DNA of 64,000 bases from Morchella semilibera (taxonomy: Eukaryota; Ascomycota; Pezizomycetes; Pezizales; Morchellaceae), in contig WBVU01000004.1 of assembly GCA_009192285.1 (NCBI GenBank), forward strand, positions 3,308,001-3,372,000, read 5' to 3'. This document shows, piece by piece, positions 30,501 to 37,216 of the stretch. Position 1 is the stretch's first letter; every line of letters starts with the position of its first letter. The notes under the pieces were generated by a model that was not told the DNA's origin, made no database searches, and saw only the letters and a list, made by a program, of their open reading frames with translations. The translations under genes were made by a program, and so were the position numbers.

Positions 30501-32647
30501 TATTGTGGGGGGTTGAGTGAAACTTGGAAAGCCAGTGGGGGTGCTCGAGTGGGGGCATATCTGGATGTCTCAAGAGGCAATTACATAATCACTAACGTAG
30601 GCTCGATAAAGATCTCACTTGAGAAGAGAACGAGGAAAATAAACAGGCGCTCGATCATTTGAGAGTTGAGGATCGTAGGTTAAAAGTATATTCTTGAGGA
30701 CACTTTTTATCCGAGTGGTAGTGTATAAATCCAGTTGCTAGTCTCCAGAACGATCCTCTATCACCTTAAGAGATAACCAATCTAATTCAATCTTTGATTT
30801 TGTAAACCTTCTTTGTTGTTCGACAAAGCCATAATGAAATTCACGCTCCTACAACAGCCTCCCTATTGAGGCTAAATACGTATGTAGTCGAGTATCCCTT
30901 AAGTTTTAAATTGCTGACCCTATATTATAGAGGTGAGAATTTGTAGGGGGGTCAATTGATTATTTAATAGGAGAGATAACATACATGTATGCATCAGTAT
31001 GAAATATCTGTGCTAATTGTTCCTAAGGCCGTATGTAGTTCTTTTAGAGAAGGGGGGTGCATTGGATCGGATTACTCACCCGAAAAAAAAATGTCTGTTG
31101 TATTTTGAATGATAACTGGCGCTGCTAAGATATCAACAGACTTTATTACCTTGGAGGGTATGGCGGATCTACTCATAAGTACCTAGAAACGAATGAAATC
31201 ATGATGGGGAAAAAAAAAGAAAAAATTTAACCCTACTCTCCTTTTCTCGGAAGCCGACAGCCCAAGAAAGTAATGCATTGAGCTACCTGAGTGATAAGTT
31301 CTAGGCTAGCGGGGTCCTGACAATGATAAGCCGGACCATAGCGAATTAACCAATCAACCGATCACTCAGTTGGATCATAGACTATCACTCGTTGAAGTCT
31401 GCCAGTCCGAGGACGTGCCATTTGAAAATAAAAACTAAAAGGGCATGTTTGGCGCAATATATACTTCAGTTACCTAGGCTACTGCGAAGTACTGGGTTTT
31501 ATATCCTTCATTTACAACTAGGCTTCTTATATATATAAGACTTGGGTGGCAATGAACATATGAGTGTAGAAACAGGTAATACTATGCGGTACTCTCCTAA
31601 AACCCATTGACTATCCGATGGGCCCCATAGTCTCAGGCTTGTTCTACCATCCCTTTTCTCATCATCTAACTTGCTAGATTAAAAGGTTAGTAGGTCGTTG
31701 AAGTGTAGCCTTTGTGGTACAGGCAGCTAACCACAACCCTAACCCTAACATGAATATGATTATGGGAGGTCCTTGCGCCGCTGTAAAGAATTGCCCCCCG
31801 TTGGGCTATTACTTTCAAGGGGGACCGAACAGAATGGGTCAACTTCATAAGGCTGGCGTCGTAGTAAGAGTGGTACTCATTGACCAGTCCCTGGAACTCA
31901 CACCACCCCCGCCCCCCAGGTTTACGGCATGGGGGGGGGGGGTTGGTTGGTCAGGGTTAGGTTCGACTACTACATATGTAGGTTTTGTACAGGATCTAGC
32001 ACTGTACTCTCACGCTGAAGTCGTTAGCATAAAGAAAGGATAATTGATCTATATCACAAAATAGTGGGCGGCCTCAAAGACAGCAGCAGGGTTAGGGGAG
32101 CCCAAGAACATTACATAATGTAGGAGCGGACAAAGTTATGTAGCTGACTGCAGTACAATCAAGACTGCGTTATAATTAGATGTATATACCCGGATTATAT
32201 GATAATATATCCTAACATATATACCAAAGAGTAAGTCCCAAGACAGACAGTACGCATATCCTCGGAAGTCGCGTTTCGCCATCTATCTTAGTGGTCCGAG
32301 TGATCTCTGATGCTTAAGGCCCAATGTACGAGTGATATTCCATGCACCAATCATGTGCTACATTGAAATCTAACGTTATGATCCCGCCCCATAAAAAAAA
32401 AGAAGAGAGCTAAAAAGAGAAGAAAGGGAAGAAAAGTACACCGCTCGCCACTAAGCATACAGGCGGTCCCTATAACCAAAAACCGCAATGAAAACACAAC
32501 CGAGTCAAAAAGGGTAATAATAAAAAAAAAAACCATTTAGTCCGAGAGCACGCCAACCCGCAAATTCATCCCATCATTAAAAACAAATATAAAAAAAGAG
32601 AAAGGGAGAAGTGGAGGCGAGAAAGAGAGAAAGAGAGAAAGAATGCC
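27526..32647. other. about 5 kb intergenic region without a supportable gene
   Basis: No frame here shows a known domain or a convincing exon chain; the longest open frames are about 110 codons and low in complexity. Contents noted: the kinase leader with CTTG repeats (27525-27545), a G-run at 28709-28722, an A-run at 29333-29350, and a short telomere-like stretch CCCTAACCCTAAC at 31737-31749. The AGATCTAGATCTATGGATC patch near 29730 is partly palindromic. The region could hide non-coding RNA or decayed repeats. Confidence 0.45.
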
Positions 32648-34212
32648 TCAAATGCTCTGCTCCATCTCGCTGATATACAGAAGTATGTGTGCCTTCATCT
32701 TTGCGAACTCGGCGTGCGCGGCGTTGACCTCCTCCTCGACCTTCTCCTTCATGTCGGCCATCTCCTTCTCGATCTTCTCGATAATGATCTTCTTCTTCTC
32801 CATGTCTTTGTCGCGCTCGGCGCGCTCCTTGGACAACTGCTTGTAGGCCTCCTTGAGTTCACGCATCTTTTTCTGTGCGCTCGAGGACTTGGCTTCGCCG
32901 GTTTCGCGCATGCGGGTGATCTTATCGGTTGCGTTTTGGAGCTGGCGTTGGAGGCGCTATGCGGGGTTTATTAGTTAGTGGATGTAGTTTTATTCTGAAA
33001 CGTGACCTAAATGGGACAAACCTGCTCGCTCCTTTCCGCTTCCCGTACCTCCGTCTGCTTCTGCGTCAGCACGTCAAAGTGCCTTGCCGCCTTCCTCGCG
33101 CTCTCCTCCTCTTTCACCAGCTCGGCCTCGCACTCCTCCATGATCTTGATAGCGGCCATCACGTCCGACTCGACCACCGCAAAACTGTCCGCACTTGTCT
33201 GCAGCGCCCGCCCTTTCCTCTCGAGCGCATCCGCCTCTGCCTTCTCCGCCGCCAGCGTCGCGCCCATATCCACAATGACCCCTTGCAGCTTCTCGGGGGA
33301 GTCAACAATATAGGGCCTGATCTTCTCTGCCTCTTGCTTCGTCTTTGTGATAAAAAAGGACCTATCCTCCAGCTTCTTGACATGCGCCTCCTTCTCCGCC
33401 TTCAGCTTATTCCACTCGGCCGTCAGCATCTTCTCGCGCTTACTCATGCCATATAACTCCTCCGTGAGCGCCTTCACGTCCTTGCGCGCCTCCTCAATCA
33501 TCGGCTCTTCGCGCGCTCTCTGCATCTTGAGCGCCTCCAATCGTGCCGCTAGCTCCTCATTCTCGTTGGTCCGCGCCTCAATCGCCTCCTTGACCTTCTC
33601 CGCCTTTGCAAAGTGTTCGTCGATCTCACCACCCTTGCCCTCACGGAAGCGCGTAAAGTTGATGACGTAGCTGAGGATCTTGATGAGACGTTTTGAGTCT
33701 GGCTTGGCCAGGTCGTTGAAGGTGAAGTCGTTGATGTCGCACTCATGCATGAGCGTACGCAGCGAGGTGTAGAAGGCCATTAGCGCACTAGCGTCGTGGA
33801 GCGTCTCGGGGTGGTCGAGCTGCTCGCTGGCCGAGCGGAGGATGGGCTCAACGGTCTCACGGCGTACACCCATAAGGAGCTCGGCGAACATCTCGAAGAC
33901 GAGTTGGATCTTTTGTGGCATGGGACGGCGCAGGTCGTCGAGGGAAAAGGTGACGCCAAGCTCGGAGATGCAGTCAACAATTGTGCTCTCGGGCTACATA
34001 GCGGGGGAGGGGGGAATGTTAGTCTTCATCTTTAGAGTAGGTAGGTTGGTTTCTAGAGCCATAGTCAAGGCTGTAGGGGGGTTGTAGGAGAGGAGAGGAC
34101 GGACTATCATGAGGTAGCTGTCAGCTTGTGGGGTGGCCTGTTTTCGGGTGCTGGGTGGGGGTTGGTTCTGTGAGGAGCGAAAGACATTGCTCTGGCGTGG
34201 ATTGTAGGACAT
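32648..34212 (-). CDS. NUF2: Kinetochore protein NUF2
   Basis: Exons on the minus strand: 34212-34105, 33993-33022, 32956-32648 (1,389 nt, 462 aa, the usual Nuf2 length). It begins MSYNPRQSNVFRS, typical of Pezizomycotina Nuf2. The N-terminal calponin-homology-like domain includes STIVDCISELGVTFSLDDL, MPQKIQLVFEMFAELLMGV and IKILSYVINFTRFRE. From about residue 190 to the end it is long heptad coiled coil, which pairs with Ndc80. Nuf2 is part of the NDC80 complex that attaches spindle microtubules to kinetochores. The first intron (33994-34104) is the least certain: its donor is GTCCGT, but splicing there restores the family sequence, and a CTAAC branch element precedes the acceptor. An unspliced read hits a stop at the acceptor. 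Confidence 0.93.
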
Positions 34213-35322: not shown

Positions 35323-35463
35323 TGAACTAACTGGCAGCTTTTTTTTTTTTTTTTTTATTTCATATAGTTCAATTAATTCTAGGTACATGAACATTGCATG
35401 CAGGGCAAACCCTATGGCATAAAGAGCACCTATCCCCAAACAACCTGAACTAACTGGCAGCTT
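35323..35463 (-). mobile_element. retroposon-like insertion with A-tail and 18-bp target-site duplication
   Basis: The 18-mer TGAACTAACTGGCAGCTT occurs at 35323-35340 and again at 35446-35463. The 105 bp between them begin directly with a run of 16 T (35341-35356). Read on the minus strand this is: duplication, about 89 bp of unique sequence, a 16-18 nt A-tail, duplication. That is the signature of target-primed reverse transcription of a short RNA by a LINE-type machinery. The insert (35357-35445) has no ORF and no tRNA-like promoter box that I can recognise, so the source RNA is unknown. It may be a 3'-end fragment of an mRNA or a short SINE. Confidence 0.6.
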
Positions 35464-36045: not shown

Positions 36046-37216
36046 ATGCCAGCATTAACCGCCACTCAAACCACCTACATCCTACGGCATCCTACACCCG
36101 CCGAGCTCACCCGTATCCGCACACAGCACTCGACCTGCTGGGCTGGCGCCCTCACCGTCTCCCAGTATCTAACACGTGAGGACCACATTGCCTCTACAAA
36201 ACTCACCTGCAATGGGGGCATGACACAATGGGTCCTTGTTGATGCCACAAACCCAGAGCACGTCCTGGCCTCGTGCGAGGCGATCCAGAAGAAGGCCGTT
36301 ATCTCCCACCCGCCGGTCGATGGCGAGAGGCGAGTGCCCGTGAAGGGCGTTGTGGCTTATGGGGTTGGGAGTGTTTTTACGCCTCCAGAGTGCCGTGGTA
36401 ATGGGTATGCGAAGGTGATGCTGACGATGCTGGGGGAGAGGTTGAAGAAGCACAATGGGCAGAATGCCGGATTCTCAGTACTGTATTCGGATATTGGGAA
36501 GGTATAGACCCGCCCCCCCCCCCACCCAACCTCTTTCCCGTCTGGTATTGTGGTAGCTGATGTCCAGATAGAAGTTCTACGCAAATCTTGGGTGGCTTCC
36601 GCACAAGTCCTCACACTTTGAGCTACCGGTGGGCTCTTCTCCGCGAGTTTATGAATCCAGAGTGCGTCCATTGTACCGCGATGATATCGCGCCCCTGTGC
36701 GCACTCGACACGACCGCCTTACACGCCGCAATGTCGACACGGCACCACAAGACTCGAATCGCTTTCCTGCCCGACCACGGTACAATGGACTGGCACTTTA
36801 ACCGTGAGGAATTTATCGGTGCCTGCGTGCACCCGTCCCTCGGGTCGCCCAAGGTCAAGGGTAGCATCACCACCTCCGGAATGCGCTGGGTGATCTGGGG
36901 GCGCGATTTTAGCATCGCGGGGCCAAAACTCTACATCCTCCGGGTGGTAGATTTCGGGCCGGAGGAGGGGCGGAAGGAAGATCTGATGGCACTGTTGAGC
37001 GCCGCTGTTGAGGAAGCGCTGCGCTGGAGCTTGGGGAAGGTTGTGGTGTGGAATCCAGCGGAGAGTGTGTTGGAGGCAGCGCGGGCGGTGGATGACGGTG
37101 TTGCGATTGTCGACAGGGAGACGGACTCCATTCCCAGTCTAATGATGTATGGCAAGGGGGGGAGTGGGGAGACGGAGGTTGAGTGGGTGCTGAACGAGAA
37201 GTATGCGTGGTGTTGA
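36046..37216 (+). CDS. LYC1-like N6-L-lysine acetyltransferase (GNAT fold)
   Basis: Exons 36046-36501 and 36572-37216 (1,101 nt, 366 aa). Splicing at 36571/36572 gives SDIGKKFYANLGWLPHKSSH; the intron has a C-run near its 5' end. Family-like segments include SQYLTREDHIASTKLTCNGG, TQWVLVDATNP, HVLASCEAIQKKAV, an acetyl-CoA-binding motif FTPPECRGNGYAKVMLTMLG and a C-terminal domain (MRWVIWGRDFSIAGPKLYIL, ...EVEWVLNEKYAWC). Yarrowia LYC1 acetylates lysine as the first step of lysine catabolism; that is the likely reaction by family. No targeting signal is evident. It is divergent from NUF2. Confidence 0.87.

Follow-up and report, generated by a model that had tools for sequence, protein, structure and literature searches.

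The locus

A short A-tailed insert framed by a direct duplication (Table 1) was analysed in a 64-kb window (the whole stretch of DNA under study). The insertion site is intergenic. A minus-strand frame with a Nuf2 domain lies on one side of it (33007-33921) and plus-strand frames lie on the other from 36046 onward, with a LYC1-like GNAT domain at 36629-37213. The nearest first ATG of these plus-strand frames, which are frames and not gene models, is about 0.58 kb from the insert. Both flanks are single-copy in the genome assembly to which the window belongs, so that a second allele of the insertion site is absent from the assembly and a segmental duplication is disfavoured.

By exact search, TGAACTAACTGGCAGCTT occurs exactly twice in the window, on either side of the insert. 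The plus strand carries a run of 18 T at 35339-35356, the first two of which also end the first 18-mer, and the minus-strand tail is thus 16-18 A long. Read on the minus strand, the order is duplication, 89 nt, A16-18, duplication, which agrees with the exact 18-bp repeat around about 89 bp reported in the preliminary description. AATAAA is present at the insert end. The tail model R1, whose training set includes the window copy, matched the insert with 82.4 bits.

Exact 18-mer pairs spaced 18-300 bp were sought throughout the window. Fourteen pairs were found; a filter for complexity, which required 10 or more distinct 3-mers, left eight of them. These eight fall at three places: the insert locus, 60154 (19-bp spacing, six of the eight pairs) and 63775 (36-bp spacing). 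Only the insert locus has a spacing that fits an insert of about 100 bp.

Table 1. Features of the insert locus and places in the genome with paired endonuclease and reverse transcriptase (RT) domains
Feature	Position	Strand	Basis
First copy of the target-site duplication, beside the poly(A)	35323..35340	.	18/18 exact against 35446-35463
Poly(A) tail (T run on +), 16 nt plus 2 T shared with the duplication	35341..35356	-	Direct reading
89-nt 5'-truncated 3' end, very probably of a SINE-like non-autonomous retroelement	35357..35445	-	Identity to L010 and L011; tail model R1
Conserved tail signature CCATAGGG-loop-CCCTGCA, possible short hairpin	35399..35417	-	41 genome places
Second copy of the target-site duplication, beside the truncated 5' end	35446..35463	.	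18/18 exact against 35323-35340
Exo_endo_phos_2 with RT	C12:1098476, C13:1097411, C7:721176, C7:156064, C3:1846294, C3:916621, C1:5552718, C20:1255896		Endonuclease match partial at C12, C13 and C20

Copies of the insert in the genome

A search with the 89 nt in the genome itself (56.8 Mb), as proposed in the preliminary description, returned at least 40 matches including the insert, and the copies carry A-tails and varied duplications. The size of this genome and these element families, like the preliminary description, point to a fungus. Thirty-nine five-kb regions covering the 40 listed places were taken, and 38 of them match the insert by blastn at E ≤ 1e-4. At the same threshold L047 gave no blastn match to the 89 nt; its tail-model match is weak (20.4 bits). 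The signature CCATAGGG-N3-9-CCCTGCA was found at 41 genome places, six of which are, by coordinates, second members of contig pairs (C12/C13, C21/C22), and the reversed control gave none. An A-rich tract of 6-28 nt, short interruptions allowed, stands at the same position in all 38 loci measured; this count includes four second members of contig pairs and excludes the second fragment of L029 (L029b). Family members elsewhere in the genome have the same 3' end and other flanks. Among GTDB genomes, an exact 40-mer from the window was found in none, and the tail pattern in two bacterial contigs, which were taken as chance.

The contig pairs C9/C10, C12/C13 and C21/C22 contain collinear, near-identical stretches, and the surroundings of L018 and L019 are identical in 3500 of 3500 columns. 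On the paired contigs the matches recur at small repeated offsets, as if the assembly held two haplotypes in part.

Target-site duplications

The sequence right after each A-tract was compared with up to 2.3 kb upstream. Removal of the pair duplicates L012, L015, L019 and L044 and of L029b left 34 loci. Seven long LINE copies (L018, L020, L021, L023, L024, L025 and L030), whose 5' ends lie beyond the sequence compared, stand outside the resulting count of 27; their 3' flanks were still included in the 272 controls, each of which set the 3' flank of one locus against upstream sequence from a different locus.

A score of at least 12 (12-18 bp, at most one mismatch) was reached at 18 of the 27 testable distinct loci, the window locus included with 18, and in 0/272 control pairings. 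Dispersed A-tailed copies with differing flanking duplications bear out the footprint of LINE-type retroposition that had been proposed from the window alone. The nine loci that did not reach 12 were L016, L017, L026, L029, L033, L034, L041, L043 and L045. L016, L029 and L043 scored 11, as did 4/272 controls; the matches of L029 and L043 sit at the expected place and that of L016 away from its head. The other six scored 6-9, the same as controls. When only exact matches were allowed, 11 or more was reached by 12/1900 controls.

The 5'-truncated copies with a score of at least 12 comprise eight of 51-114 nt (the window copy and others of 51, 63, 73, 76, 89, 94 and 114 nt) and copies of 322, 385 and 1245 nt, the last being a truncated LINE copy.

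Full-length elements

Among the copies compared, those closest to the insert, with 88, 87 and 85 of 89 nt identical, belong to full-length elements. These have a conserved 96-nt head and a tail of about 86 nt followed by poly(A), and their basic size from head to tail end is 718-825 bp. L010, L011, L013, L014, L022 and L037 share the start nucleotide (CAACCCTC, CAACTCTC or CATCCCTC), which adjoins the duplication; the common start holds within 1-2 nt, the possible overlap of the duplication with the first letters. At the same head boundary, L029 and L031 have duplications with one mismatch.

L029, L031 and L037 are longer (1485-2125 bp), and a stretch of about 148 bp is common to L029 and L037 in inverted orientation. 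L017 is split, its head signature lying 6.6 kb from its tail; between them is a frame with integrase and chromo domains of the LTR-element type. L029 also contains a repeat of about 630 bp twice, in opposite orientations. This repeat, perhaps a small DNA transposon, is likewise present in the LINE copy L021 and in L026.

The frames of six full-length copies (110-269 aa) contain no reverse transcriptase detectable with Pfam at E ≤ 0.1. The sole Pfam match in these copies, in L011, is weak, below the cut-off and irrelevant. A stop-free sense frame of 263 codons spans the whole of L010 (L010:1777-2565) and has no Pfam match. It is broken in the six other copies checked, where the longest frames have 110-173 codons (L011 173, L013 170, L016 156, L022 142, L012 132, L014 110). 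Over 122 codons L010 and L016 differ at 32 nucleotides, distributed 9, 14 and 9 over the three codon positions, and 22 of the 27 changed codons are non-synonymous. From this pattern the L010 frame does not look constrained. A coding element was rejected, given the lack of a Pfam match, the broken frame in other copies and differences that show no constraint; the SINE-like family is read as non-coding.

L012 (C22:598 kb) and L014 (C21:597 kb) are the same insertion with the same duplication on two collinear contigs. Their flanks (about 3 kb) differ by one substitution, and the element of about 0.8 kb shows 20 substitutions together with 34 gap columns. This divergence would be explained by an assembly error or by gene conversion between copies.

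Head, RNA structure and transcription

A 31-base head signature (at most three mismatches) was found at 27 genome places, and its reversed control at none. In 13 of the 27, a family tail in the same orientation follows no more than 7 kb downstream, the tail places for this pairing being drawn from the matches of the insert (at least 40) and the 41 signatures. Among the 14 heads without a family tail, the eight examined for their body (seven loci after one pair duplicate) are joined to a different body, termed family B. The bodies diverge, but the head is conserved. Family B, which was first recognized in L058, is located at C17:338571, C11:1887980, C7:93444, C16:30043, C22:1620878, C23:1860020 and C21:645121 (= C22:646169), and its frames are short or broken. 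That the head is the 5' end of the LINEs found was rejected: 0/27 head signatures lie within 10 kb upstream, on the same strand, of the RT matches listed (at least 58, from 56 scored of 165 candidates).

Folding of the first 118 nt of L011 is more stable than that of shuffled sequences (z -4.36). Across five distinct heads, one of 24 pairs changed on both sides, which 364/500 shuffles also reach, and the covariation score was reached by 59/500 shuffles. Three tails folded singly were no better than shuffles (z 0.15, 0.06 and 0.47). The tail hairpin consensus has no covarying pair, because the AGGG/CCCT pairs of the signature never vary, and its loop length differs between copies. We make no claim for a head structure, and the tail hairpin is only possible.

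A Rfam search of eight loci (E ≤ 1) gave no 7SL, tRNA, 5S or ribozyme match; three sub-threshold matches were to two microRNA families and SmY. ARAGORN found 0 tRNAs in 10 loci. A known structured RNA as the identity of the insert was rejected after the Rfam search, and so was an HDV-like ribozyme at the 5' end: the Rfam search to E = 1 yielded no ribozyme, and none was seen by eye.

With no tRNA, 5S or 7SL match at its head, the family falls outside the classical Pol III SINEs. Runs of 4-13 T occur within all six full-length copies checked, and A and B boxes, sought by eye only, were not recognized. Pol III terminates at T runs, and internal runs of four or more make full-length Pol III transcription unlikely. 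Pol II would then be the transcribing polymerase, with the head as a possible internal promoter. The preliminary suggestion of a new fungal SINE stands in so far as the insert is the last 89 nt of a SINE-like element; it falls in that the insert is not a whole SINE and the element has no small-RNA head.

The resident LINE

The LINE copy L018 has an open frame of 806 aa in the part examined, with a Pfam RVT_1 match at E = 4.7e-25. By sequence, the nearest solved structures to its protein are the R2 and LINE-1 proteins. An Exo_endo_phos_2 endonuclease domain lies in line upstream of RT at eight places (Table 1). A genome search with RVT_1 gave 610 candidates, the best 150 of which appear to be LTR elements for the most part. 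The LINE protein had no relative among viral contigs.

Over its last 86 letters, which include a few A, L022 is 97.7% identical to the L018 tail. The L011-group or window-type tail is about 85% identical to the nearest LINE tails and was found in none of the LINE copies read. In the usual SINE/LINE pair, the non-autonomous RNA takes the LINE protein via a shared 3' end. By analogy, mobilization in trans by the LINE protein, with the non-autonomous RNA using the shared 3' end, is likely here, and the resident LINE would have supplied the enzyme. The lesser likeness of the window-type tail to the LINE tail leaves room for another partner.

Source and origin of the window copy

The 89 nt of the window copy match L010 in 88 positions, L011 in 87 (one gap), L013 in 85, L014 and L016 in 84, and L022 and the LINE copies L018 and L020 in 74-75. 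Of 33 aligned tails (an alignment that excludes L012, L015, L019, L044, L029 and L047) and of the 41 signatures, only that of L010 has the same TTTG loop. Because of the 88/89 identity and the loop common to L010 only, an L010-like element is, on sequence grounds, the most likely source.

The insert is very probably a dead-on-arrival, 5'-truncated copy from a non-autonomous, LINE-dependent (SINE-like) family of about 0.8 kb. A rival reading, a 5'-truncated copy of an autonomous LINE itself, appears improbable. The LINE tail is related, and a truncation inside it leaves nothing of the remaining element, but the window-type letters (GTGC, AATGTTCATG, ATTAATTGAAC and the TTTG loop) agree with the non-autonomous group and not with the aligned LINE copies. 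The identity is 88/89 to L010 against 75/89 to the LINE copy L018, and among the matches listed, identity of at least 93% across the greater part of the insert is confined to copies L010-L017, which include no LINE.

A processed fragment of a host mRNA mobilized by a LINE, which the preliminary description had offered as an alternative, is very improbable. Poly(A) and AATAAA at the insert end and the stop-free frame across L010 would suit it, but its copy number, with a common 3' end recurring at dozens of sites, largely contradicts it, as does the finding of full-length elements; the L010 frame itself has no Pfam match, is broken in the six others and differs mostly by non-synonymous changes. 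The nearest copies lie in full-length elements and the LINE has a related tail, so the insert is best taken as a truncated LINE-mobilized element and not an mRNA fragment. A chance repeat or tandem-duplication artefact next to a homopolymer, to which a simple A-run with nothing further might point, was rejected with near certainty, since other family members have the same 3' end with different flanks and no control reached 12 in the duplication test.

The insertion of the window copy is genuine and its mechanism ordinary. It is probably recent, as had been surmised from the perfect duplication; the pure A-tract and the 88/89 identity to the nearest full-length copy agree with this. The copy has no evident function.

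The genome holds a repeated family of full-length and truncated copies with a LINE-like tail and duplications, and a LINE coding for endonuclease and RT. The features that can be tested for a LINE-mobilized non-autonomous element were found: duplications of variable length (about 10-20 bp), poly(A), 5' truncation, a resident LINE, a shared 3' end and no RT of its own. The order of the insertion steps is inferred. A transcript of a full-length element near L010 (C20:511 kb) would have been polyadenylated and taken up by a LINE endonuclease/reverse transcriptase by way of its poly(A) and LINE-like 3' tail. The intergenic site would then have been nicked, with priming on the poly(A) (target-primed reverse transcription) and synthesis halting at 89 nt. 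The 18 bp would have been duplicated when the staggered break was repaired.

Comparison with known systems

Eg-R1 of Blumeria is, by analogy, the closest system. The passages of PMC6022598 that concern it describe a non-autonomous element with no A or B boxes and with internal poly(T) that belongs to eight elements whose 5' region is described as conserved; its insertions number more than 3000 and are without genomic poly(A) stretches. The Eg-R1 and BG_Non-LTR elements of Blumeria graminis (PMC6022598) resemble the family described here in being non-autonomous and SINE-like with internal poly(T), no reported Pol III boxes and a conserved 5' region. The likeness is one of description and not of sequence; in contrast to Eg-R1, the family here has clear A-tails and dozens of copies.

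Mg-SINE/MGL and SINE2-1_BG/Tad1-24_BG are given as fungal SINE/LINE pairs in PMC3747384. Mg-SINE of Magnaporthe is similar as a fungal non-autonomous element with a LINE partner (MGL), but it is described there as tRNA-derived, whereas no tRNA-like head was found here. In Magnaporthe, chimeric retroelements from the same LINE machinery are also described, one with 14-bp direct repeats (PMC2104539). In Aspergillus fumigatus, the 3' end of AfuSINE2-1a resembles the 3' UTR of a resident LINE, I-1_AF; according to the same account (PMC5063351), it differs in being tRNA-derived, with family sizes of 140-493 bp, and in ending with ACT repeats and not poly(A). Stringent and relaxed types of LINE tail recognition are distinguished in PMC5135761. 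The SINE-like family was not met by name in a text search of the literature, which was made without sequence and hence gives no evidence of novelty.

A broader reading is held as a tentative possibility. The window copy could be a fragment of a modular Pol II non-autonomous class with a shared, possibly folded 5' head and at least two bodies, the one with a readable 3' end carrying a LINE-type tail. The head might serve as an internal promoter, a protein-binding site or an undescribed ribozyme, and Eg-R1-type elements of powdery mildews could belong to the class. An apparently recently active non-autonomous retroelement family and its probable LINE partner have been identified, with duplication-bearing copies from 51 nt to full length. 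Further work might best be spent on the conserved head: should it prove to be a module common to fungal Pol II SINE-like elements, it would offer a concrete target for testing what transcription or capture needs.

A second tail match in the window

The window contains a second, far shorter match to the tail model on the plus strand at 31179-31205, with 18.3 bits and a within-window E of 8.9e-5; A-rich sequence continues to about 31227. No clear duplication was seen around it. The match consists of GTACCTAGAAACGAATGAAATCATGA followed by an interrupted A-tract and resembles the tail of L041. It is possibly an old, ultra-short copy of the SINE-like family.
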